Of a DNA stretch of 64,000 bases, positions 25,936 through 41,471 are shown piece by piece. A program made the translations under genes and the position numbers. Source of the stretch: Agrobacterium tumefaciens str. B6. Lineage in GTDB: Bacteria; Pseudomonadota; Alphaproteobacteria; Rhizobiales; Rhizobiaceae. Position 1 is the stretch's first letter; the number at the start of each line of letters is the position of its first letter. The DNA lies in contig NZ_LMVK01000010.1 of the NCBI RefSeq assembly GCF_001541315.1, positions 1 to 64,000 of the forward strand. Direction: 5' to 3'. The notes under the pieces were generated by a model, which saw only the letters and a list, made by a program, of their open reading frames with translations, did not search any database and was not told the DNA's origin.

Positions 25936-26327
25936 GAAATATCCGAAAAATCATCCGTTGCGGGGCAGAGCCACCGCGATGTCGGTCAGCCTTGCGGCGT
26001 CGGTTTCCGGCATAGCCGCAGAGGCCGCCGCTACACGTGAAAATGATGCCTGAACGGGTTTGCGGTGCAGCGGATTGTCAGCAATTGCATAGTCCGGGTA
26101 ACACTTCATTTAGTGATTTTGTGAAATCTAAAATACGCAGGTTCCAAGGTTTCATCGGCGGAGCCGGTAGAACAAGTGAAGCCTCCTCGACCTGCCTGGC
26201 GGCGGTTCGAAAATGGCGCTCGCTTGTCGCCCTATGAGGAGGGGCAACAGCTACCCGCGATGTTTCATCATATATTCCCCGGCCTCCCGCGAGGGCGGCT
26301 GGAGGAGTGCTTGCCTTGAGGCCATTC
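25936..26327. other. 392-bp gap upstream of the chemoreceptor gene
   Basis: No gene is supported here. The AT-rich stretch at about 26100-26135 could hold the promoter of the chemoreceptor gene. A GGAGGAG sequence at 26301-26307 is a ribosome site too far (21 bases) from the chosen ATG but suits a TTG at 26316. Confidence 0.4.
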
Positions 26328-28271
26328 ATGTCTTTCCTGAAGAATACCAAGATAAAAACGAAGGTCGTTTTTGTCATCTCGCTGATGAGCCTGATGTCGC
26401 TTTCCGGAATAAGCTACGTCAGCCTGCAATATCAAAAAACCGACAACGTCTATAGCGACTTCATCGGCCATGAGGCCCTTGCTGCGGTTCTGAACGCCAG
26501 AACCAGCGGAAACCTCAATGCGCTCGGCATGCAGATGCTTCGCGCCAGCCTCAACGACCCGGCCAGTGGTGATTTCGAAGCTGCCGTCAAAACCTTCAGA
26601 GCCGACCATAAGCAACTCGAGGAACGCCAGAACAAGATCATGGAGCTGGTGCCGGCGCGCACGGAAGCCGCCCGCGATATCCTCAAGGGTGTTGTCGAAG
26701 TCGAAGAGATCGGCAATCAGGTCATCGCCCTCATGCAGGCAGGGCAACGCGCCGAAGCGCAGCAGATGGCGCTTAACGTGCTTCGAAAAATTGCCGAAGT
26801 CTCGCCAAAGATCAGCGCCGGCAATGAGCAGCTCATCCAGGTCATGAATGAGGGGAGAGAGCGTCTTACAGCCAGCACCAATACGACGATCTGGACGGGC
26901 CTGATTACGCTCGCGCTCGTTTCTCTGGCTGTGATCGCACTTGGCCTGCTTGTTTCTTCCCGAGGCATCACCACCCCGATTGCGCGGCTTCGTGCGCGCA
27001 TGGAATCGCTGGCGGCCGGTGATACGGCGAGCGAAATCGCCGGAATGGATCGCAGGGATGAAGTTGGCCAGATGGCCGCGGCCGTGCAGGCATTTCGCGA
27101 AGGTGCAATCGAGCGCCTCCGGCTTGAGAATGAAACGGAAGCCAACCGGTCGACTTCGGAAAAGGACCGGATCGAGCGCGAGAAACAGAAGGCCAGGGAA
27201 GCTGCCGACGTACAGTTTGCCGTCGATAATCTTGCCACGGCCCTTTCGAAGATCGCCGAGGGCGACGTTACCTACCGGATCGTTCAGCCATTCGTCTCCG
27301 GCCTTGACGGTATCCGTGGTGATTTCAATCGGGCTGCGGAGCAGTTGCAGTCGACCTTGAGCCAGGTGGCGCAGAACGCACGCGGCATCGATGCCGGCGC
27401 CAACGAGATCAGGTCTGCGGCAGACGATCTGGCGAGACGCACGGAGCAGCAGGCCGCCGCCGTCGAAGAGACTGCGGCTGCGCTGGAAGAGATCACCACG
27501 ACGGTGAAAGACGCCACGAAACGGGCGCAGGAAGCGGGTCACCTCGTCGGCCGCGCAAAAGTCGGCGCTGAAAAGTCCGGAGAGGTGGTGCAGCAGGCCG
27601 TTGCGGCAATGGAGCAGATCGCGACATCCGCCAATGAGATTTCCAACATTATCGGCGTGATCGACGAGATCGCGTTCCAGACCAACCTTCTGGCGCTGAA
27701 TGCGGGCGTTGAAGCAGCCCGTGCGGGAGAGGCGGGCAAGGGTTTTGCCGTTGTCGCGCAGGAGGTTCGCGAACTGGCGCAGCGCTCCGCCGGTGCCGCC
27801 AAGGAGATCAAGAACCTGATCACGACATCGAACGGTCAGGTTCAGCAGGGTGTACAGCTGGTTGGCGAAACCGGCAGGGCGCTGGAACTGATCGTGACGG
27901 AGGTGAAGGAAATCAACCGGCACGTTGCGGCCATCGCGGAATCGGCGCAGGAGCAATCCTCAGGTCTTCAGCAGATCAATACGGCCGTGAACCAGATGGA
28001 TCAGGACACCCAGAAGAACGCCGCCATGGTGGAAGAAAGCACTGCCGCCAGCCACGGCCTTGCGCGCGAGGCGTCTTCGCTGAACGGGCTAATCGCCCAG
28101 TTCAAACTGTCGGAGGGTTCGTTCAGCGAGTTCGCTGCGCCAGTGCGTTCGGCTTCGCCCGCCGACAGACCCGCTCGTTCTCCCGCCCGCGCCTTGGGCG
28201 GCAGGATCAAGGCTGCGTTTTCCGGCAATGCGGCATTGAATACCGCGGCGGATAATTGGGAGGAGTTTTGA
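26328..28271 (+). CDS. Methyl-accepting chemotaxis protein with CheR-tether C-terminus
   Basis: A 647-residue transmembrane chemoreceptor. Layout: N-terminal span (VVFVISLMSLMSLSGISYVSL), a periplasmic helical sensor domain of about 150 residues, a second span (TGLITLALVSLAVIALGLLV) near residue 195, a HAMP domain, a second HAMP-like helical segment (DNLATALSKIAEGDVTYRI), then the signalling coiled coil with the conserved hairpin IDEIAFQTNLLALNAGVEAARAGEAG split over about residues 450-475. It ends NWEEF, the pentapeptide that tethers CheR in full-length receptors. The ATG at 26328 is preceded by GAGG; a TTG at 26316 or GTG at 26307 are alternatives. Ligand unknown. Confidence 0.93.
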   Translation: MSFLKNTKIKTKVVFVISLMSLMSLSGISYVSLQYQKTDNVYSDFIGHEALAAVLNARTSGNLNALGMQMLRASLNDPASGDFEAAVKTFRADHKQLEERQNKIMELVPARTEAARDILKGVVEVEEIGNQVIALMQAGQRAEAQQMALNVLRKIAEVSPKISAGNEQLIQVMNEGRERLTASTNTTIWTGLITLALVSLAVIALGLLVSSRGITTPIARLRARMESLAAGDTASEIAGMDRRDEVGQMAAAVQAFREGAIERLRLENETEANRSTSEKDRIEREKQKAREAADVQFAVDNLATALSKIAEGDVTYRIVQPFVSGLDGIRGDFNRAAEQLQSTLSQVAQNARGIDAGANEIRSAADDLARRTEQQAAAVEETAAALEEITTTVKDATKRAQEAGHLVGRAKVGAEKSGEVVQQAVAAMEQIATSANEISNIIGVIDEIAFQTNLLALNAGVEAARAGEAGKGFAVVAQEVRELAQRSAGAAKEIKNLITTSNGQVQQGVQLVGETGRALELIVTEVKEINRHVAAIAESAQEQSSGLQQINTAVNQMDQDTQKNAAMVEESTAASHGLAREASSLNGLIAQFKLSEGSFSEFAAPVRSASPADRPARSPARALGGRIKAAFSGNAALNTAADNWEEF

Positions 28272-28482: not shown

Positions 28483-31400
28483 TCAGACGTCCAGGTAGGA
28501 CAAAATGGTTGCAGCGACGTCAGACGCCTCCTGCGTCTCACTCGAAGCGTTCGCTGATGTGTCGGTCCCGGCTGTATTGTCCGGGGTCGCAGCCTTCTGC
28601 TCGGTGGTTGAGATGAAGGAGGCGATATCCTGCACGGAGCTGTTTGTGGGCTTTGCGCTATTTAATGCCGTAACCTGCGCGGACGTCATGGCGGCGATCT
28701 GACCCGGCGTGAAGGCGGCCGCCTGGGAGGTCGTCAAGGCAGCGAGCGTGCCGGTGCTCAGTCCCGAGATCGCGCTCGAACTCAAGCTGATGATTTGCTC
28801 GGTGGAAAATGTTGTGAGGTCGTCGCCGCCAAGCGCGGCTGCCTGCATCGCGTTGAGGGCGCTGACCTGCGACAGTGAAAGCGCTCCGATTTGTGCAGAT
28901 CCCATTGCCGCCACCTGGCCGTAGCTCAGCGAAGCCACCTGGCTTGTGGTCAAGGCGGCGATCTCCTGAGGCGACAGGGACGCTACAACGGCGGTGGACA
29001 ACCCCCTGATCGCCGTCGAATTGATGGCAGCAAGCTCGCCGGTCGAGAATGTTGCCAGATCTTCAGTCGTCAACCCCGCAAGTCCGGCCGAACTTAATGC
29101 GGCGATCTGGCTTGTAGAGAGTGCTTCGATCTGATCCCTGCCAAGGGCGTTGATCTGATCGCCAGTCAATCCGGCGACGCCAGCCGTACTGAGGGCTGCC
29201 ACCTCAGCGGTGGAAAGAGCGGCGATAAAGCCCGTGGACAGTCCCTTTATCGCGCTTGAACCAATCGCGGCGAGTTCTTCCGTTGAGAAGGTTTCCAGCA
29301 TCTCCGCAGACAGGCCCTTGAGCGCATCCGAATTCAACGATGCGATCTGACGGGTGGATAATGCCTGAACCTGTTCAATGCTCAACGCGCCGGTCTGTGC
29401 GCTGCCAAGGCCTGCGATCGCCTTGGCGTCCAGAGCAGCTATCTGGTTTACGGAAAGGGAGGCGATGTCGGCCGTATCCAAAGCCGCAACCTGTTTGGAG
29501 GGGAGGGCGGCGATCTGGGCATTGGTCAGCGCGTTCACCTGACCGGTGCCGAGGGCGGCGATCTGGTCCGTGGTCAGACCCGGCACTGCCGCCGCACCCA
29601 GGGCGGCGATCTGAGCTGTCGTCAGCGAAGCGATCGTTGCTGCCGACAGGCCCGAGACCGCACTCGAGCTGATGGCAGCCAGCTCAGCGGCGGTGAATGT
29701 ATCGAGATCATCGGCGCCAAGGGCCGCAATCTGTTTCGAACCGAGAGCACCGATCTGAGCGCTGGTGAAGGCCTCGACCTGAGCGGTGTTGAGGGCCGTG
29801 ATCTGATCAGCGGTCAGGCCTGCCGCGCCCGCCGTGCTGAGGGCGGCGATCTGGGCTGCTGAAAGCGAGGCGATGCCGGCTACGCTGAGAGCGGCAACCT
29901 GCTTGGAGGTGAGGGCGCCCACCTGGGCGCTGGTGAGGGCCTCGACCTGGGTGATGCTGAGCGCCGCGATCTGGTCGGTGGTCAGGCCGGGTAGCGCCGC
30001 CGTGCCCAGGGCTGCGATCTGAGCTGTCGTCAGCGAAGCGATTGCAGCCGTCGACAGGCCCGAGATTGCACTCGAGCTGATGGCAGCCAGTTCGGCGGCG
30101 GTGAATGTATCAAGATCATCGGCGCTAAGCGCCGCAATCTGTTTTGCGCTGAGAGCACCGATCTGGGCACTGGTGAGGGCCTCGACCTGAGCGGTGTTGA
30201 GGGCCGCGATCTGGTCAGTGGTCAGGCCGGCTATACCCGCGGTGCTGAGCGCGGCTATCTGGGTTGCCGAAAGCGAGGCGATGCTGGCCACGCTGAGAGC
30301 CGCAACCTGTTTGGAGGTGAGGGCACCCACCTGGGTACTCATCAGGGCGTCCACCTGATCACTGGTCAGGACGGCGACCTGTCCGGTGTTCAGTCCACCA
30401 ATGCCGGCCGTGCTCAACGCTGCGATCTGAGCCGTGGTCATCGACGCCACGGTTTCCGCTGACAGACCTGGGACGGCATTCGAACTGATCGCAGCGATGT
30501 CCTTGGTCGAGAACGTTGCTATGTCATCCGTACTCAAGACTGCAATCTGTTTCGAGCTGAGAGCACCGACCTGGATATCGGTCAGGGCCTCGACCTGCGT
30601 GGTGTCGAGGGCCGCGATCTGATCAGTGGTCAGGCCCGTTATACCGCCGGTGCTGAGGGCGGCGATCTGGGCCGCCGAAAGCGAGGCAATGTCAGCCACG
30701 CTGAGAGCCGCAACCTGTTTGGAGGTGAGCGCAGCAATCTGGGTATTGGTCAGAACGTCCACCTGATCGCCAGTCAAGGCGGCGACCTGTCCGGTGCTCA
30801 GCGCGCCGATGCCGGCCGTACTCAGCGCGGCGATCTGCGCTGTTGTCAGCGACGCTATGGTTTGCGTTGACAGGCCCGGGACCGCATTCGAACTGAGCGC
30901 GGCAATGTCTCTGGTCGAGAACGTTGCGATATCGTCTGCGCCCAGGGCCGCTACCTGCGTCGAGCTGAGTGCGCCGACCTGGGCGCTGGTCAAGGCCTCG
31001 ACCTGAGCGGTACTCAAGGCGGCGACCTGCCCGGTGCTCAGTGCGCCAATGCCCGCCGTGCTCAGCGCTGCAATCTGGGCTGTCGTCAGCGACGCCATGG
31101 TTTCCGTTGATAAACCCGCGACCGCATTCGGACTGATCGCGGCGATGTCCTTGGTCGAGAATGTCGCAATGTCGTCCGCGCTCAGGGCCGCTATCTGTTT
31201 GGAGCTGAGAGCGCTGACCTGGGCGGTGGTCAAGGCCTCGACCTGGGCGATGCTGAGGGCGGCGATCTGCACGGTGCTCAACGCAGCGATGCTTTGCATA
31301 TTCAGGGCGGCAATCTGGGCTGTCGTCAGGGAGGCGATGGTCTCCGCCGACAATCCTGAGATCGCACTTGAACTGATCGCGGCGATGTCCTTGGTCGTGA

Positions 31401-33674
31401 ATTTCGCCAGATCGTCCGTTCCCAGCTGCGCAATCTGTGTGGAGCCGAGATTGACGATCTGCGCACTCGTCAGGGCTTCAGCCTGGCTGGTGCTGAGGGT
31501 CGCCAGTTGCTGCGAGCTAAGTCCCGCAATGCCCGCAGCGCTCAGGGAGGCAATCTGGGCGGTTGAAAGAGCGGCTATGTCGTCTGTACCAAGGGTGGCG
31601 ACCTGTGCCGCGCTCAGCCGCCCCATCTGCTTGGTCGACAGTCTGGAAACCTGATCGGTGCTGAGGGCGGCGATCTGGCTGCTCGAAAGTCCGACGATGC
31701 CAGAGGTGCTCATTGCCGCGAGCTGGGCGACGGAAAGCGATGCTATATTGTCCGTGCTCAATGCCGCAATCTGTCCCGAGCTGAGAGCTCCGATCTGGAC
31801 GGTGGTCAAGGCCGAGAACTGATCGATGCTGAGCGCTGCAATCTGATCCGTGGTCAGACCCTTGACGCCCGCAGCACTCAACATGGCTGTTTGGTTGGTG
31901 GACAAGGCGGTCACATCGTTGCCGAGAGCGGCGACCTGTGCTGCGCTCAATGCCTTGATCTGCGCGGCGGATAGAAGGCTGGCCTGATTGCCGCTCAGGG
32001 CTTCGATCTGGTCGGAGGTCAGGCCGGTAATAGCACTGGTGCTCAGGGCACCGATCTGAGCCGTGGTGAGGGCTGCGATAACATCCGTGTTCAGGCCCGG
32101 CATGGCTCTGTTGGTGATCGCTGCGATATCGGCGGTCGAGAATGTCGCCAGATCTTCAATGCTCAGGGCCGCAATTTGCGTTGAACTCAGTGACTTCACC
32201 TGTGTCGGCGACAGGGCCTCGACCTGACCAGTGCTCAATGCTTCGACCTGATCGGCCGTCAGGCCGGCGATGGCGCTGGTGGTCAGGGCCGCGATCTGGG
32301 CGGTGGTCAGCGCCGCGATTGCGTCCGTGCTGAGGCCGGCCATGGCCTTGCTCGTGATCGCCGCAATATCGGCGGTCGAGAATGTCGCTATGTCCTCCGC
32401 GCTCAGAGCCGCAAGTTGTACCGAGTTCAGCAACTTCACCTGTGCCGAGGACAGGGCTTCGACCTGCTGGGTACTAAAGGCTTCGATCTGATCGGCGATC
32501 AGGTTTGCGATCACCCCTGTGTTGAGGGCGGCAATCTGAGCGGTTGACAGGGCCTCGATCTGAGCAGCGCTCAGGGCCTGGAATTGCGCGACGCCAAGCG
32601 CGTTCATCTGGGCCGTCGTCAATGCGGCGACCTGATCTCTGGTAAGCGCGCCGATCGTCTCCGTGCCCAGACGTGGCATGGCTTTGGCGGTAATCTCCGC
32701 GATATCGGCGGTTGGGAACGCGCTATATCCTCCCCCCCCCGGGCCACGAATTGTGCCGCACTCAACGATCTCACCTGTGCCGGTGACAGGGCTTCGACCT
32801 GGCTCGTGCTTAAGGCGGCGATGTGCGTTGTTTTGAGCGCGGCAATCTGAGCCGTCGTCAATGCGGCGATCTGGGCGGTGCTCAGGCTTTCGATATGGTC
32901 GATTGTCAGACCCGCAATCGCACTTGCATTGAGGGCGGCGATCCGATCAGGGGTAAACTCTGCGATTGCTTCGGTGCTGAGGCCCGGCATGGCTTTGACG
33001 GTAATCGCCGCGATGTCGGCGGTGGAGAATGTCGCTATGTCATCTGTGCCGAGGGCCGCGAGTTGCATCGAGCTCAACACCCTGACCTGTGCCGGCGTAA
33101 GGGCTTCGGCCTGATCCGGGCTCAGGACCGCGATCTGGTCGGTTGTCAGGCTTGCAACGGCGCTTGTGCTCAGGGCCGCGATTTGATCCGGGGTCAGTCC
33201 TGCAATCACTTCCGTGCTCAGGCCCGGCACGGCTCTGTTCGTGATCGCGGCCATATCAGCGGTTGAGAATGTTGCGATATCTTCCGCGCTCAGGGCGGCA
33301 ATTTGCGTCGCACTGAGGGCGCGCACCTGAGATGAGGTCAAAGCCTCCGCCTGATCGGTCGTCAGGGCCTGAAGCTGGGTGGTGGTGAGCGCAGAAACCT
33401 GGCTCGAATTCAGACTTTTAATGGCGTATTGATCGAGAATATTGAGTTGATCCAGCGTCAGGCCAACGATGGCGACCTGCGAAATTGCGCTCAACTGTTG
33501 CGAGTTGAGGACTTTGACATCCTCTACATCCAATGCCGCGATCTGAGCCGACGAGAGCGCTTTGATCTGCGTTGTGGAAAGCGACGCCACGTCGTCGGTT
33601 GTCCAGGCTGCGACCGCCTCTGTCGAAAGATATCTGATCTGATTGACATTCAGGGAAGAAATGATCGACGTCAT
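28483..33674 (-). pseudogene. Giant octapeptide-repeat protein A, frameshifted
   Basis: About 1730 codons built almost wholly from an eight-residue repeat, consensus (S/T)(S/T)xQ(I/V)xAL, for example STAQIAAL, TTDQIAAL, SSKQIAAL, about 215 copies. Every eighth to sixteenth unit varies to SxDDIATF-STADIAAI-SSxAIxGL. It starts MTSIISSLNVNQIRYLSTEAV and ends with a non-repeat, Ser/Thr/acidic tail (SDVAATILSYLDV). No Sec signal or membrane span. The reading frame breaks once, within 32619-32760: the repeat register runs to EDIA in the first frame and resumes at FPTADIAEI in the second, placing a one-base loss near 32716-32723, next to nine G's (coding strand) at 32732-32740. As read, translation stops at 32619 after about 350 residues. 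It may be a true pseudogene, a phase-variable gene or a sequence error. Same N-terminus as protein B. Confidence 0.8.
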
Positions 33675-33944
33675 GTCTGAAAAATCCTAAAGTCCAAGCT
33701 TAACAGGTAGATTTTCCGCCCAAGCCCCCCAAAGGGGCATCGGTTATTCGGGTCCACCATTTTTCAGATGTTGATTACGCAATCGGGCTTGCCTGAACCT
33801 GAAGTTGCTACGTCTCAGCCGATCTCCCTTTGCGATACTTGTCTTTAACGCCGCCGGCGAGGGACGTTATGCCGTCGCGGCAAAACGTCGGCGAGCTCCG
33901 GTAAAGCCGGCGCGTGTTATGGAGAAGAACGCGACAGATCCGTT
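33675..33944. other. Gap between glf and repeat gene A
   Basis: 270 bases holding the probable promoter of repeat gene A. GCCCC/GGGGC (33724-33738) forms a small hairpin. An AGGA ribosome site lies before the MTSII start. No gene seen. Confidence 0.4.
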
Positions 33945-35108
<1,164 letters not shown>

Positions 35109-35204
35109 TCAGTCCTGTTCATACGTCGCCCGGCGGGCGGTCAAGATTTGCATCGAAGAGCTGCCGTGCAGCGCGTGCCCCGGCCGGTCGAGAATAGTCC
35201 GCGC

Positions 35205-37250
35205 TCAGTTGTCCGGTTTCTGCCAGAGGCGACGGTCATAGGGGATTGGCGCATAGTCGTGCCACTGGGTGAGCTTCTTGAGGTAGCGGTTGCGGTAGCT
35301 CTGCTCGTCTTCAAACTCTATGTTCTCGAAAACGGCTTCCGCGCCCAGTTCGTAATAGAGATCGAGATTGCTGAGATCCGGCACCGGTGTCTCGCCGCGC
35401 TCACATTCGCCCTGCATTTGCCAGAACAGCTCTTCCAGACGTTGCGCCAGAGCGGGAATATCGCGCAATACGCTGGTGTCGCGCTGCCGGGCGATCGATT
35501 CTCTAACCTCCAGAAGGCTCTTCCGGTCGCGTTCGAAACCGATGGCGCGGGCGACATAATCTTCCGGCGAAGAACAAATCATTTCCGGAACACCCGCTGC
35601 CGTGACGATGCTGCCGCAGAAGCGCGCCGCAAATGTCTTGCCGGGCATGGTGAGGACGGGCAGGCCGGATGTTATCGCATCCGCGGCTGTGGAGTGAGCG
35701 CCATAGGGGAACGTATCCAGAAACAGATCGGCGACGCCGATACGGGCAATATGTTGCGGGTTCGGGACCTTCGGCGCAAATACGAGCCGTTCCGGTGCGA
35801 TGCCACTTTTTTCTGCGATGCCTTGCAGGCGTTGATTGACATCTTCATCGCCCGCCAGCAGCCACAACAGGCTGCCCGGCGTTTCAGACAGGATCGTCAT
35901 CCATCGCGCAAAGCAGCTTTCGGTAATCTTCTGCATTCCGTTGAAGCTGGCATAAACGAATGCATCCTCCGGCAGTCCGACCTCGGCCCGGCTTGGCCGG
36001 GCGGCGATTAGGCGCTTGCGGTCAAGCGGCTGGTCACAGGCGATGCGCAGGACCTTTTCGGAGTAATAGATGTCGTTCTCCGGCGGGATCATGTAGCCGT
36101 CGGAGATCAGATAATGATGGAAGGGGCTTCCCATCGATCCGGGATAGCCGCAGAAACTGACGATAACAGGCGCGGGACGATAGGCGAAAATCTTCGTGCG
36201 AGCGTCCTTGGTGTAGCCATTCACGTCGATCAGGATATCAATGTCGTCGGAAATGATCTGCGATGCCGCCGCGGCATCGTCGAGGCCATGGATATCCCGC
36301 CAGCAATGAACCGCTGCCTTGATCCGCTCCTGCGTGCTGTCAGTGTTGCGGACGTTACCGCAATAATAGGCGAAGACCTCAAGGCTGTTCTTGTCATGCA
36401 ACTCCAGAACCTCGCAAAGAGCGAAGCCGACGGCATGGTCGCGAAGATCCGACGAGAGGTAGCCGACGCGCAGCCGCTCACCGGTCCCGGACTTCTGCTT
36501 CGGTGATCTGCGTGGAAAACGGCTGAGGTCCGGGCGCGTGCCGACCACCGTTTTGCTATAGCGATATGCCTTGGCCAGCTGGAACATCGGATCGTCGGCG
36601 TAACAGCTCAGCGTCAGCGACGACATGGCGTCGAGCATCTTGCGGGCAGGGACGTGGTTCGAGGGCGCAAGCACCGGCCATTTGCACTGCCGCTGCCGCA
36701 ATGATACCCAGTGCTGGCCTGCTTCCGGCAATTCCGGCCGCAGCTCGAACGCCTGCAGCAAGGCGGTCTCAGCGTCATCAAGCTTTCCGGCGCCTTCGAG
36801 GACCCGGCCGATGTTCTGCAGGGCCATATGCCGATGGCCCACCGCTTCGGCGTCGAGATGTTTCGTTGTCTCGGCATAATGCGACCACTGTTCCACAGCC
36901 TGGCCGATCAATCCGCTATCTTCAAGGACACGGCCGAGATTGATGTGGCCGGGAGCGAATTGCGGATTGGCCTTCAAACAGGCGCGGAATGCCTGTACGG
37001 CGCCCGCGCGGTCGCCGAGCTGGCTGAGCGCGACGGCATAGTTGAAATAGGCAAGATGAATGACGGGATTGTTGTCGTTGAATGCGACCCAGGTCTTGTA
37101 GAGTTCCACAGCAGCGGCTCGTTGGCCGGCGGCATTGAGCGCCTCGGTCACGCTCAGCAGATCCATGAGACTTAACCGTTGGTTCCGCGCAAGATCAAGT
37201 GCGCTGGGAGCGGTGTCGTCATTTGAAGGAGAGACGTGGTTGGCGGTCAT
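35205..37250 (-). CDS. TPR-GT41 protein glycosyltransferase (SPINDLY/OGT type)
   Basis: A 681-residue protein with TPR-like helical repeats at about residues 30-185 (NPVIHLAYFNYAVALSQLGDRAGAVQAFRACLKANP) and a GT41 catalytic region from about residue 255: LRVGYLSSDLRDHAVGF, then DILIDVNGYTKDARTKIFAYRPAPVIVSFCGYPGSMGSP broken into conserved blocks, and DLFLDTFPYGAHSTAADAITSGLPVLTMPGKTFAARFCGS. These match O-GlcNAc transferase/SPINDLY enzymes, which modify Ser/Thr of cytoplasmic proteins; Caulobacter FlmG, a related TPR-GT41 protein, glycosylates flagellin. The ATG at 37250 has an AGGA site. Flanked by two Ser/Thr-rich repeat proteins, its likely substrates (inference). Confidence 0.92.
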   Translation of the reverse strand: MTANHVSPSNDDTAPSALDLARNQRLSLMDLLSVTEALNAAGQRAAAVELYKTWVAFNDNNPVIHLAYFNYAVALSQLGDRAGAVQAFRACLKANPQFAPGHINLGRVLEDSGLIGQAVEQWSHYAETTKHLDAEAVGHRHMALQNIGRVLEGAGKLDDAETALLQAFELRPELPEAGQHWVSLRQRQCKWPVLAPSNHVPARKMLDAMSSLTLSCYADDPMFQLAKAYRYSKTVVGTRPDLSRFPRRSPKQKSGTGERLRVGYLSSDLRDHAVGFALCEVLELHDKNSLEVFAYYCGNVRNTDSTQERIKAAVHCWRDIHGLDDAAAASQIISDDIDILIDVNGYTKDARTKIFAYRPAPVIVSFCGYPGSMGSPFHHYLISDGYMIPPENDIYYSEKVLRIACDQPLDRKRLIAARPSRAEVGLPEDAFVYASFNGMQKITESCFARWMTILSETPGSLLWLLAGDEDVNQRLQGIAEKSGIAPERLVFAPKVPNPQHIARIGVADLFLDTFPYGAHSTAADAITSGLPVLTMPGKTFAARFCGSIVTAAGVPEMICSSPEDYVARAIGFERDRKSLLEVRESIARQRDTSVLRDIPALAQRLEELFWQMQGECERGETPVPDLSNLDLYYELGAEAVFENIEFEDEQSYRNRYLKKLTQWHDYAPIPYDRRLWQKPDN

Positions 37251-37469
37251 GACATCCTGCGGCAAGGCGACAAAGGGTCGAAGATAAAACGGCCTGTTGA
37301 TGGGCCGTACTTAGCTATCGCAGGTAACTTGCCTGTGGCTGGATGTGTTTGAAGCGGGGTTGCGTGTCCAGATCAGCCAGCGGCCCGGCGGGGCGAAGGT
37401 TTCTCCCAGTCAGGCGCCGGCTTCTGAGGCGTTGATGCTGTCGTGCCGCAATAAGGATCACTCACATGT

Positions 37470-38435
37470 CTAGCGACGGGAATGTTTCATCCTGTAGCTC
37501 GCCAGAGCGATTGACGGGTTTATCCTATAGACACTGTCGAAGTCTTCGTCTGTGAAGTATTGGTATGAATGTGCGACATATTCCCGGAAAAGACCGTGCA
37601 GGTCCTCCCGCATCTGCTTGGCCGCCCATTCCAGCAGACCTGCCTTGAAGACGATGAAGATCGGGTAATATTTTGCCCTGAAGATCGGATTTTCTAGGAA
37701 AAGCTTTTCGGTGTCTTTCAGCGCCGCGAACATTTCAAGTCGGCGCTCGTCGAAAGTGCTCGTATGCTGCTCCCGTCCCGGGATGAGGCGATGTGTTGTC
37801 AGGCTGCTGTTAATGGCCAGAAAGCGCCCGGCATTCATATAGGCCGCCCAATGCGGCAGGATATCTTCGTTGATCCGCGCCGTGGAGAAGCGCCATTTCG
37901 TCTGGTGAATGAAAGATGTCCGCAGTATCTTGTTCCACGGGTAGTTGATCGTCACCAGGAATTGCGCGGTCGAGTCGAGATCGATCATGGCGCTGTCGCG
38001 ACTACCGAGGACGCTATCCCAGATATTCTTGTCGATAGGCGCCATTTCGCCAGGAGCGCCACCGGCCGTTCTCAGCACGCTATATCTGAATGCCGCGACA
38101 TCGATATTCGTCTCGTCCATCAGGGGCAGAACGGTATCGACGGCTCCCTCATGCAGGAGGTCGTCAGCATCGTGAAACAGGCAATATTCGCTGTCGATTG
38201 TCGCCAGCGCCCTGTTGCGGGCGACGCCCGGGCCGGTGTTCGTCTCGCTGCGCATCAGCCTTATATTGGCGTGCCGCGCCATGTATTGCGCAACGATGTC
38301 GCAGGTATTGTCGGTGGAGGCATCGTCGACAACGACGATATCCATTTCGGTTTCATTACGCAGAACACTGTCGAGTGTCTCGGCGATAAGACTGGCCATG
38401 TTGAAGGCCGGAATGATGATGGATATTTTTGCCAT
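37470..38435 (-). CDS. Family 2 glycosyltransferase
   Basis: A 321-residue GT-A fold transferase: ISIIIPAFNMASLIAETLDSVL at the start, DIVVVDDASTDNT, GPGVARNRALATIDSEYCLFHDADDLL (DxD-type metal motif DADD). The C-terminal half (YPWNKILRTSFIH, INEDILPHWAAYM) resembles transferases acting on surface polysaccharides and glycoproteins. No membrane span, so it acts in the cytoplasm on a nucleotide-sugar donor. Start at MAKISIIIP. It follows repeat gene B after a hairpin terminator and precedes the GT41 gene. Confidence 0.9.
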   Translation of the reverse strand: MAKISIIIPAFNMASLIAETLDSVLRNETEMDIVVVDDASTDNTCDIVAQYMARHANIRLMRSETNTGPGVARNRALATIDSEYCLFHDADDLLHEGAVDTVLPLMDETNIDVAAFRYSVLRTAGGAPGEMAPIDKNIWDSVLGSRDSAMIDLDSTAQFLVTINYPWNKILRTSFIHQTKWRFSTARINEDILPHWAAYMNAGRFLAINSSLTTHRLIPGREQHTSTFDERRLEMFAALKDTEKLFLENPIFRAKYYPIFIVFKAGLLEWAAKQMREDLHGLFREYVAHSYQYFTDEDFDSVYRINPSIALASYRMKHSRR

Positions 38436-38481
38436 GACAGAGACTGAATGTCCTTCTGGGGCATTCTGCAATTAAAATGTT

Positions 38482-38506
38482 ACGACGCGGCCCTGAGCCG
38501 CGTCGT
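38482..38506 (-). terminator. Hairpin terminator after repeat gene B
   Basis: A perfect 10-bp stem ACGACGCGGC / GCCGCGTCGT with a 5-base loop, followed on the minus strand by AACATTTTAATT. It lies just after the stop of repeat gene B and could reduce read-through into the glycosyltransferase genes. Confidence 0.72.
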
Positions 38507-38528
38507 AGGTTTTCTGGTCGTTTAAGTC

Positions 38529-41471
38529 TTATACTGCCTTGTAGGCTTTGATGACCGCCTCGACCTGTGCATCGTTCATGACCTTGAGCTGCTGGGGCGA
38601 GAGAGCGCCGGCCTGGGCGCTGTTCAGACCACCAATGGCAGCTGTGGAGAGACCGGCGACGGCATTTGCGCTGATCGCTTTGATCTCATCGGTCGAGAAG
38701 AGTGCCAGTTCGCTGCTGTTCAGGGTCGCGATCTGTGCGGAGCTGAGGCCGGAAACCTGATCGGAGTTGAGGGCCTTGATCTGGTCGGTCGACAGGGCCG
38801 CGAACTGTGCCGAAGAGAGCGCTGAGGCCTGTGCTTTGCTCAGGGCGGCGACGTTATCGGTGCTCAGCTTGCTGGCATCGAGGCCTGCGAGTGCCTTGGT
38901 GCTGATGGCCTTGACCTCGTCGGTCGAGAAGGTGGCAAGGCTATCAGAGGACAGGGCGCCAAGCTGTGCCGAAGACAGGCCAGCGATCTGCGTCTTTGTC
39001 AGTGCCGCGGCGTTTGCGGTGCCGAGGCCCGCGAGCGCCGCCGCGGAAAGACCGGCGATGGCATTTGCGCTGATCGCTTTGATCTCATCGGTCGAGAAGA
39101 GTGCCAGTTCGCTGCTGCTCAGGGTCGCAACCTGGGCGGAGCTGAGACCGGCGACCTGATCGGAGCCGAGGGCCGTGATCTGATCGGTCGAGAGAGCTGC
39201 GAACTGTGCCGTGGAAAGTGCTGCGGCCTGTGTTCTGCTCAGGGCGGCGATGTTACCGGTGCTCAGCTTGCTGACGTCGAGGCCTGCCAGTGCCTTGGTG
39301 CTGATGGCCTTGACCTCATCGGCGGAGAAGGTGGCAAGGCTGTCGGAAGACAGGGCGTTGAGCTGTGTCGAAGACAGGCCGGCGATCTGCGTCTTGGTCA
39401 ATGCCGCAGCGTTTTCGGTGCCGAGACCGGTCAGGGTAAGACCGGCGATGGCATTGGCGCTGAGAGCCTTGATCTCGTCGGTCGAGAACAGCGCCAGTTC
39501 GCTGCTGCTCAGGGTGGCGACCTGTGCGGAGCTGAGGCCGGCAACCTGATCGGAGTTAAGGGCCTTGATCTGATCGGTCGAGAGAGCTGCAAACTGCGCC
39601 GAGGACAGTGCCGCTGCCTGCGTTCTGCTCAGGGCGGCGATGTTACCGGTGCTCAGCTTGGTGACGTCGATGCCTGCGAGAGCCTTGGTGCTGATGGCCT
39701 TGACTTCATCGGCGGAGAAGGTGGCAAGGCTGTCGGAAGACAGGGCGTTGAGCTGTGTCGAAGACAGGCCGGCGATCTGCGTCTTTGTCAGAGCGGCGGC
39801 GTTTTCGGTGCCGAGACCAGCCAGGGTAAGACCGGCGATGGCATTGGCGCTGATGGCCTTGATCTCGTCGGTCGAGAAGAGTGCCAGTTCGCTGCTGTTC
39901 AGGGTCGCAACCTGGGCGGAGCTGAGACCGGCAACCTGATCGGAGTTGAGGGCCTTGATCTGATCGGTCGAGAGAGCTGCGAACTGTGTCGAGGACAGTG
40001 CCGAAATCTGCGTTCTGCTCAGGGCCGCAATGTTGCCGGTGCTCAGCTTGCTGGCATCAAGACCGGCGAGGGCTCTGGTGCTGATGGCCTTGACCTCGTC
40101 GGCAGAGAAGGTGGCAAGGTTGTCGGAGGACAGGGCGTTGAGCTGTGCCGAAGACAGGCCAGCGATCTGCGTCTTTGTCAGTGCGGCGGCGTTTTCTGTA
40201 CCGAGGCCAGCAAGTGCAGCGGCGGAAAGACCGGCGATGGCATTGGCGCTGATAGCCTTGATCTCGTCAGAGGAGAACAATGCCAGCTCGCTGCTGTTCA
40301 GGGTCGCAACCTGTGCGGAGCTGAGACCGGCGACCTGATCGGAGGTGAGTGCCTTGATCTGATCGGTCGACAGGGCTGCGAACTGCGCCGAGGAAAGCGC
40401 CGCTGCCTGCGTTCTGCTCAGGGCGGCGATGTTACCGGTGCTCAGCTTGGTGACGTCGATGCCTGCGAGAGCCTTGGTGCTGATGGCCTTGACTTCATCG
40501 GCGGAGAAGGTGGCAAGGCTGTCGGAAGACAGGGCGTTGAGCTGTGTCGAAGACAGGCCGGCGATCTGCGTCTTTGTCAGAGCGGCGGCGTTTTCGGTGC
40601 CGAGACCAGCCAGGGTAAGACCGGCGATGGCATTGGCGCTGATGGCCTTGATTTCGTCGGTCGAGAACAGAGCCAGTTCGCTGCTGTTCAGGGTGGCGAC
40701 CTGTGCGGAGCTGAGACCGGCAACCTGATCGGAGTTGAGGGCCTTGATCTGATCGGTCGAGAGAGCTGCGAACTGTGCCGAGGACAGTGCCGAAATCTGC
40801 GTTCTGCTCAGGGCGGCGATGTTGCCAGTGCTCAGCTTGGTGACGTCGAGGCCGGCGAGGAGCTTGGTGCTGATGGCCTTGACTTCATCGGCGGAGAAGG
40901 TGGCAAGGCTGTCGGAGGACAGGGCGTTCAGCTGCGTCGAAGACAGGGCGGCGATCTGAGACTTTGTCAGAGCGGCGGCGTTTTCGGTGCTGAGGGCAGC
41001 AAGTGCAGCCGCAGAAAGGCCGGCAATTGCATTGGCGCTAATGGCCTTGATTTCGTCGGTCGAGAACAGAGCCAGTTCGCTGCTGTTCAGGGTTGCAACC
41101 TGTGCGGAGTTGAGACCGGCGACCTGAGCCGAGTTAAGAGCCTTGATCTGGTCGGTTGAGAGGGCGTCGATCTGGCTGGTGTAAAGTGCCGTAACCTGAG
41201 ACGCCGACAGGCCGCTGATCTGAGCGGAGCTCAGTTTTGCGATCTGGGTCAGGGTCAGTCCCTTAAAGGCGCTTACGGAAATGGCCCGGAGGTCTTCAGA
41301 GCTGAAGAGCGCAAGGTTATCTGTGCTCAAAGAAGCGATCTGAGACGACGAGAGGGCCTTGATCTTGGTGCTGTCAAGGGCATTCACGTCTTCAGAGGTT
41401 AGGCTGGCAATGGTGGACGTGGAAAGCTTGGAAATCTGCACAGCAGACAGTGAGGAAAGAATCGAAGTCAT
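38529..41471 (-). CDS. Giant octapeptide-repeat protein B
   Basis: An intact 980-residue protein, about 120 octads of (S/T)(S/T)xQ(I/V)xxL such as SSAQFAAL, STDQIKAL, NSDQVAGL, SSAQVATL. It opens MTSILSSLSAVQISKLSTSTIASL, like protein A, with an AAAGGA site upstream of the ATG at 41471. Higher-order units of 130 or 133 residues recur six times; the shorter ones carry GLTLAGLG instead of GLSAAALAGLG, a three-residue loss that breaks the eight-residue phase. Each octad starts with S/T followed three residues later by Q/D/E, a helix N-cap pattern, suggesting a solenoid of short helical turns. No Sec signal and no membrane span. Likely a secreted or surface protein glycosylated by the adjacent GT41 enzyme (inference). 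Confidence 0.88.
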   Translation of the reverse strand: MTSILSSLSAVQISKLSTSTIASLTSEDVNALDSTKIKALSSSQIASLSTDNLALFSSEDLRAISVSAFKGLTLTQIAKLSSAQISGLSASQVTALYTSQIDALSTDQIKALNSAQVAGLNSAQVATLNSSELALFSTDEIKAISANAIAGLSAAALAALSTENAAALTKSQIAALSSTQLNALSSDSLATFSADEVKAISTKLLAGLDVTKLSTGNIAALSRTQISALSSAQFAALSTDQIKALNSDQVAGLSSAQVATLNSSELALFSTDEIKAISANAIAGLTLAGLGTENAAALTKTQIAGLSSTQLNALSSDSLATFSADEVKAISTKALAGIDVTKLSTGNIAALSRTQAAALSSAQFAALSTDQIKALTSDQVAGLSSAQVATLNSSELALFSSDEIKAISANAIAGLSAAALAGLGTENAAALTKTQIAGLSSAQLNALSSDNLATFSADEVKAISTRALAGLDASKLSTGNIAALSRTQISALSSTQFAALSTDQIKALNSDQVAGLSSAQVATLNSSELALFSTDEIKAISANAIAGLTLAGLGTENAAALTKTQIAGLSSTQLNALSSDSLATFSADEVKAISTKALAGIDVTKLSTGNIAALSRTQAAALSSAQFAALSTDQIKALNSDQVAGLSSAQVATLSSSELALFSTDEIKALSANAIAGLTLTGLGTENAAALTKTQIAGLSSTQLNALSSDSLATFSADEVKAISTKALAGLDVSKLSTGNIAALSRTQAAALSTAQFAALSTDQITALGSDQVAGLSSAQVATLSSSELALFSTDEIKAISANAIAGLSAAALAGLGTANAAALTKTQIAGLSSAQLGALSSDSLATFSTDEVKAISTKALAGLDASKLSTDNVAALSKAQASALSSAQFAALSTDQIKALNSDQVSGLSSAQIATLNSSELALFSTDEIKAISANAVAGLSTAAIGGLNSAQAGALSPQQLKVMNDAQVEAVIKAYKAV
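38851..41100. repeat. Long tandem DNA repeats within repeat gene B
   Basis: A marker segment (ATGTTACCGGTGCTCAGCTT or one-to-three-base variants) recurs at about 38851, 39250, 39640, 40030, 40429 and 40819. Spacings are 399, 390, 390, 399 and 390 bases, always multiples of three. Neighbouring units are nearly identical at DNA level, so recombination could change copy number without breaking the frame. The unit is coding, not CRISPR. Confidence 0.85.

Follow-up and report, generated by a model that had tools for sequence, protein, structure and literature searches.

FlmG of Caulobacter performs soluble, cytoplasmic O-glycosylation and combines an N-terminal part that binds and picks the substrate with an OGT-like part; the sections of PMC7591256 dealing with the enzyme give flagellin as the substrate and pseudaminic acid as the donor. 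In Haemophilus, HMW1C glycosylates the giant adhesin HMW1 in the cytoplasm before export, adding simple hexoses, as described in part of PMC3983070. In staphylococci, the transferases SdgA and SdgB act on surface proteins that have a long Ser-rich repeat (PMC8561734, abstract). The gene cluster reported here, in which proteins built of eight-residue repeats (octads) accompany a GT41-family enzyme, can be likened to this known kind, in which a giant repeat protein has a transferase of its own.

The cluster lies on the minus strand of the 64,000-nucleotide stretch of Agrobacterium tumefaciens str. B6 DNA that was analyzed (the window), its genes following one another from position 41471 down to 28483 with intergenic gaps of ~60 to 270 bases. 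ORFs and Pfam matches bear out the composition given by the first-pass annotation, i.e., octad protein A, a GT2 glycosyltransferase, a TPR-GT41 enzyme, Glf, and octad protein B, all on one strand:

38529..41471, minus strand: octad-repeat protein A, 980 codons, intact, PF20080 repeats along most of the sequence; putative substrate of glycosylation
37470..38471, minus strand: GT2 glycosyltransferase, accessory, PF00535 (Glycos_transf_2), E 1e-27; in near relatives only
35205..37265, minus strand: TPR-GT41, core enzyme, Glyco_transf_41, E 1e-69
33945..35102, minus strand: glf, UDP-galactopyranose mutase, PF03275 (GLF), E 6.5e-80; TIGR00031
32619..33674, minus strand: octad protein B, N-terminal ORF, 351 codons; octads up to a frameshift near 32.7 kb
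28483..32679, minus strand: octad protein B, C-terminal ORF, 1398 codons; ends in a non-octad linker, then ...ATILSYLDV

The size first reported for protein A is correct, but protein B is not one protein of ~1730 codons, its coding region (28483-33674) being split by the frameshift into the two ORFs of 351 and 1398 codons. The break is either a mutation or an assembly error; a run of nine G residues nearby (window 32619-32760) could be a mutable tract or likewise an assembly error. In one relative (L114), a single unbroken octad ORF of 1734 codons lies downstream of the GT41 gene. The GT41 ORF opens at a TTG in the ORF list, and its true start may lie further in. All 79 PF20080 matches in the genome fall inside window 28.6-41.5 kb; long plus-strand ORFs opposite the octad genes, such as window 31034-31654, probably just mirror the repeat and are not real genes. 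A chemotaxis-receptor-like gene (window 26307-28271) flanks the cluster; neither a type I exporter nor flagellar genes were seen near it, and flagellin probes had no match within the window. The closest GT41 relatives in a scan of named genomes were those of Rhizobium sp. RM (91% identity), R. rhizogenes ST15.13.057 (90%), and Agrobacterium genomosp. 13 (87%).

The core enzyme belongs to the GT41 family, scoring 235 bits against Glyco_transf_41 (cut-off, 25) and combining TPRs with an OGT-like catalytic domain. Both halves of that domain align with human OGT and XcOGT, from which the octad-associated GT41s differ by having a dedicated repeat-protein partner. The comparison with FlmG drawn by the first-pass annotation holds for the logic, i.e., an N-terminal substrate-binding part, an OGT-like part, and, as proposed here, cytoplasmic O-glycosylation (PMC7591256, same sections); it does not extend to flagellin and pseudaminic acid, and the GT41s found beside flagellins in the family fall outside the octad group. 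With HMW1/HMW1C the octad system shares a very large protein, a GT41-family enzyme encoded nearby, and many sites; HMW1C, in contrast, makes N-linked products, has an AAD domain in place of TPRs, and serves a Sec and two-partner export route (PMC3983070, same part). The enzyme considered here is a TPR-GT41 whose putative acceptor signal is a Ser/Thr at octad position 2 (see below), and it reaches 21.8 bits against the NCBIfam equivalog for HMW1C-like NGT, well short of the cut-off of 1000. The 25 most frequent of 110 families from 100 neighboring ORFs included no two-partner secretion pore. The likeness to SdgA/SdgB is drawn at the level of description, their targets being serine-aspartate repeats of a Gram-positive organism.

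The octads are members of Pfam family PF20080 (ALTTAQ_rpt), with E values of 8e-137 for A, 3e-256 for the C-terminal part of B, and 2e-62 for its N-terminal part, and bit scores of 445 for A and 827 and 207 for the parts of B, against a curated cut-off of 26.4. Protein A and the C-terminal part of B hold 109 and 167 octads in runs of at least four, far above the means of 0.5 and 1.2 (maxima, 5 and 9) obtained in 100 shuffles of each, so the runs are not due to chance. Other Pfam matches to the octads, CAAP1 and HTH_26 among them and some above the cut-off, were taken as composition artefacts. The consensus over A and B is S/T - T/S - A/D - Q - I/V/L - A - A/G - L. As first noted, both proteins begin alike, with MTSI(I/L)SSL; the start common to relatives (30 rows) is M(T/S)S-x-x-SSLSxxQIRxLS, and no signal peptide was seen by eye in octad sequences. 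Two C-termini recur for this octad type, one helix-like and ending in ...VIxAYxA, the other a linker with ...IISSYLxV or similar. A phage origin was rejected, as protein A had no match in phage records at E 1e-5, and so was a defense system, for which matches were weak only. A few octads also occur within a bacterial cadherin-like-domain protein near a large RTX-repeat protein (L095:9059-12487) in G339, a genome that gave no GT41 match.

Structure prediction, one of the checks that the first-pass annotation had proposed, gave a helical AlphaFold model for A residues 1-160 (16-row alignment; pLDDT, 90.3; pTM, 0.80). In 19 of the 20 octads the predicted helix spans positions 2-5, and in 17 it takes in position 6, leaving positions 1, 7, and 8 mostly outside. 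Position 1 is accordingly predicted to be the helix cap and position 2 the first residue of each short solenoid helix. By sequence, the octads match PDB chain 9zem (HeliScrew4; E 3e-17), in which position 1 is Ser/Thr and position 2 is Pro in most octads. Foldseek against the PDB placed mesothelin chains on top (best E 5e-4; TM, 0.15-0.45), which we regard as a lead, and 9zem was absent among the 50 matches listed. The first-pass annotation could name no described system of this make-up. The repeat proves to have a Pfam name and a related PDB chain, but searches of open-licence PMC papers yielded no description of an octad-GT41 system, and the Pfam match carried no function. The component families are already known; new, as far as those papers go, are the octad-GT41 partnership, the grouping of the GT41s, and the position 2 signal.

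The GT41-octad link is strong, and the co-occurrence in related genomes that had been put forward as a check is found. In a family sample of 199 genomes, 98 had a GT41 match and 17, own included, a close orthologue (at least 61% identity). Octads were present in all 17 genomes with this GT41 and in 13 of the 182 without it (Fisher P = 7e-17, kinship uncorrected), the latter making up 13 of the 30 octad genomes. Within 20-kb neighborhoods, an octad ORF lay near 15 of 16 close orthologues (the exception, G187, has its octad gene on a separate contig) versus none of 21 distant GT41s, controls that were hand-picked from the best matches, several from one genome and a few clipped by contig ends. 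The named-genome scan, made with a GT41 alignment and keeping the best 80 of 254 relatives, placed an octad ORF no more than 1.5 kb from the GT41 gene in 76 of these 80 loci: upstream on the same strand in 40, upstream on the opposite strand in 16, downstream opposite in 6, downstream on the same strand in 5, and on both sides in 9. The remaining four (L123, L124, L135, and L180) had octads elsewhere in the genome. Among plasmids, 18 loci were fetched from 57 records with octads; a GT41 was present in the stretch in 8 and in none of the other 10. Loci, genomes, and proteins in these counts are not independent.

Probes against the best 80 of 254 loci matched Glf in 58, PF12248 in 24, flagellar genes in 9, GT2 in 4, and T1SS in none. 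The GT2 enzyme, first taken as a standing part of the system, loses that place, all four of its loci being among the nearest relatives. Across the 16 family neighborhoods, octad, GT41, and Glf genes recurred most widely, followed by the PF12248 gene. A PF12248 (Methyltransf_FA) gene of ~430 aa lies between GT41 and glf at L044:10896-12284, L039:10937-12268, and L079:15673-16959; the probe had no match in the window. Polysaccharide genes were not among the widely recurring ones, which argues against the octad protein being a scaffold or chaperone for a GT41 and a Glf working on surface polysaccharide. That reading would suit two plasmid octad loci set among polysaccharide genes (L102 and L082), but it also leaves position 2 unexplained, and we regard it as extremely unlikely.

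The octad-associated enzymes also group by sequence. In a tree of 74 GT41s, 39 octad-linked enzymes and 3 whose genomes carry octads at another place lie on one side of a branch with SH-aLRT support of 99.9 (87 in a first, smaller tree), and on the opposite side lie non-octad GT41s of the same genomes together with the flagellin-side GT41s of L059, L069, and L071; the trees are quick, with some long branches, and reading the octad group as a clade requires a root placed among the other GT41s. Three named orders are represented among the octad-associated GT41s that group together. The rows included 12 of the 80 kept named loci, plus plasmid and other-family octad rows chosen for holding octads; the Caulobacter FlmG sequence was not among them. 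The distant GT41s of two genomes counted as lacking the enzyme (G103 and G145), when added, fell outside the octad group, which stayed unchanged. One family genome carries five distant GT41 matches in a row over ~9 kb (G188:C8:24798-33958).

The tree bears directly on whether the enzyme is instead a FlmG-like O-glycosyltransferase of flagellin, with the octad genes as chance neighbors or motility genes. The module does have flagellin genes as neighbors in L044, L045, and Pseudorhizobium (L079) and che genes as neighbors in L046 and L047; a Rhodovastum plasmid carries flagellar genes along with an octad-GT41 pair, a chemotaxis-receptor-like gene adjoins the window cluster, and FlmG modifies flagellins in the cytoplasm (PMC7591256, same sections). 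Yet the GT41s that stand beside flagellins elsewhere in the family are outside the octad group, one genome (G120) carries both GT41 kinds, flagellar probes match at just the 9 of 80 loci mentioned, and the position 2 signal would be left unexplained. On the tree and the neighborhoods we therefore rejected a FlmG-like flagellin enzyme, a reading that we consider very unlikely.

The octads themselves supply a candidate acceptor signal. Among proteins with at least 60 octads (a threshold that dropped, e.g., L210 of G035, with position 2 at 0.11), the median Ser/Thr fraction at position 2 was 0.81 in 109 GT41-linked proteins versus 0.31 in 7 proteins of GT41-lacking genomes (P = 2e-5); positions 1 and 3 showed no difference (P = 0.71 and 0.96), and position 7 showed a slight one (P = 0.03). 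Lineage means at position 2 did not overlap, at 0.61-0.97 in 14 linked versus 0.23-0.59 in 7 lacking lineages (P = 0.0003), and the difference was also seen within the family (10 linked versus 6 lacking genera, P = 0.0014), positions 1 and 3 being nonsignificant by lineage; this test drew on the window, family-sample, and other-family loci, the 80 named loci entering only the 109-protein comparison. When the pattern had already been noticed, three further genomes, making up two of the seven lacking lineages, joined the test; they agreed with it (0.23, 0.26, and 0.26), with Ala and Pro the commonest residues at position 2; the octad genomes G070, G086, and G159 stand outside the test.

Single proteins do overlap at position 2: 14 of the 109 linked proteins are at or below 0.65 (lowest, 0.52, in L106), and among lacking proteins the maximum is 0.65 (L205). 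In the window, the two larger octad ORFs come to 0.65 and 0.66. Unlinked octad proteins in GT41-bearing family genomes have 0.56-0.89 (n = 9, some cut by contig ends), as expected if the GT41 acts on these too. In G373 and G469, the linked octad proteins have 0.94, and the unlinked ones, which belong to another N-terminal type, only 0.30 and 0.21. The ten plasmid octad loci without a GT41 in the fetched stretch have 0.45-0.80, the rest of the genome being outside the comparison. Position 3 is rich in Ser/Thr (0.87 and 0.77) in two lineages with a second GT41 branch and poor in Rhodovastum (0.06) and Cereibacter (0.13), which are without that branch; this contrast between four lineages is a lead.

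The tendency to lose Ser/Thr at position 2 where the GT41 is absent suggests, from sequence comparison, that the enzyme puts sugars there. The first-pass annotation envisaged hundreds of Ser/Thr acceptor sites; one octad Ser/Thr position alone tracks the GT41. Its view of the octad proteins as the likely GT41 substrate is upheld, as far as sequences can tell, by co-occurrence, the GT41 grouping, and the lower position 2 Ser/Thr without GT41. The octads might instead be unglycosylated structural rods with Ser/Thr as helix caps, GT41 and glf being linked for some other reason. As expected for a cap, Ser/Thr at position 1 is similar with or without the GT41 (lineage means, 0.66-0.90), and 9zem, a match to the octads, has mostly Pro at position 2. 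What such bare rods fail to account for is that, among the three N-terminal octad positions, position 2 alone shifts with the GT41 (to Ala and Pro), and that octads and GT41 co-occur; we hold this explanation to be improbable.

If the octads are glycosylated, galactofuranose (Galf) is the candidate sugar in Rhizobiaceae. The window's Glf scores 317.6 bits against NCBIfam TIGR00031 (cut-off, 303.75), which identifies it as a UDP-galactopyranose mutase equivalog. All 17 family-sample genomes with this GT41 have glf, in single copy and within ~2.1 kb of the GT41 gene, versus 32 of the 182 without it; Glf was scored in 15 of the 16 family neighborhoods, and the sixteenth, G003, has glf by genome search. 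Since Glf occurs in 3 of the 13 octad genomes without this GT41 versus 29 of the 169 with neither, it follows the GT41 and not the octads. The 22 of 80 named loci without Glf all have glf elsewhere in the genome (18 loci, then 4, one of these in an already-counted genome). The role first assigned to Galf is thus supported in part: glf accompanies the GT41 in the family sample and in the genomes of all 80 named loci, but none of three tested other-family genomes with an octad-group GT41 (G401, G373, and G469) has glf, and the donor there must therefore differ from UDP-Galf. In Rhizobiaceae, judging from these gene contents, the donor is probably UDP-Galf, used directly or after a first sugar.

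These two routes can be weighed separately. The GT41 could add another sugar, e.g., GlcNAc or Glc, with a second transferase putting Galf on top, GT2 here and an unlinked enzyme elsewhere. GT41 enzymes use different donors, the GT2 gene lies between A and GT41 in the window, and glf is away from the locus in the 22 of 80 cases, though present in those genomes. FlmG, with its own donor, is one such enzyme (PMC7591256, same sections). No second transferase recurs at the loci, however (GT2 in 4 of 80), and each of the 17 family-sample genomes has its only glf copy beside the GT41, so we find this route rather doubtful. Direct use would make the Rhizobiaceae octad GT41 a protein O-galactofuranosyltransferase that takes UDP-Galf and places one Galf at position 2 of most octads, giving a rod with regularly spaced sugars; other families would use other donors, and the second GT41 branch would write position 3. 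This fuller proposal we advance tentatively, as a possibility that falls short of even confidence. To our knowledge, a galactofuranose-using GT41 would represent a new donor for the family.

The octad-GT41 pairing recurs in other alphaproteobacteria. Few genomes of the class carry octads: of 385, a profile search found them in 6, own included, and a search with protein A in 8. In G401, the GT41 is flanked by two giant octad ORFs, as in the window; in both G373 and G469, consecutive genes encode two GT41s, HlyD, an ABC exporter, and an octad protein. The genome of Caulobacter vibrioides matches both PF20080 and PF13844. A Cereibacter plasmid (Rhodobacterales) carries T1SS, GT41, and octad genes, and the Rhodovastum plasmid (Rhodospirillales) octad, GT41, and flagellar genes. 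Other-family octad loci without an adjacent GT41 are L084, L090, L091, L093, and L095. Octad genes of the other N-terminal type, with no adjacent GT41, have a chemotaxis receptor nearby at L091 and a receptor with CheA/CheB/CheR near L093 and L094. An octad locus whose genes are arranged much as in Shinella zoogloeoides (L111) was found in a record named Roseateles, a betaproteobacterium (L109, NZ_CP084753.1, UNVERIFIED_ORG); the name may be wrong. An ABC exporter with HlyD is present at L082, L088, and L092, and a weaker ABC/HlyD pair at L041. The L088 exporter used as a probe had no match in the Rhizobiaceae loci (0 of the best 80 of 254), and T1SS was rejected as the general exporter, being strong in just three loci, all of other families.

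Taken as a whole, we think it likely that the cluster is a protein O-glycosylation module in which a cytoplasmic GT41 sugars octad position 2, with Galf involved in Rhizobiaceae, and the rod is exported. By analogy with FlmG and HMW1C, the GT41 would recognize the octad proteins in the cytoplasm, probably through its TPR domain, and would add a sugar to the position 2 Ser/Thr of many octads. As these acceptors are predicted to lie within the folded helix, modification would be required before or during folding. In Rhizobiaceae the sugar would be, or would come to include, galactofuranose supplied via glf. The sugared rod may then be exported, by a route that may depend on the lineage, to a presumed role at the surface.

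If this is true, a GT41 group spanning several alphaproteobacterial orders would be matched with a substrate, a prediction of where the acceptor lies, and a candidate for the donor, and part of the PF20080 repeat proteins would gain a proposed role. With one acceptor per eight residues, the octads would also offer a clean test bed for how TPR-GT41 enzymes choose their sites.
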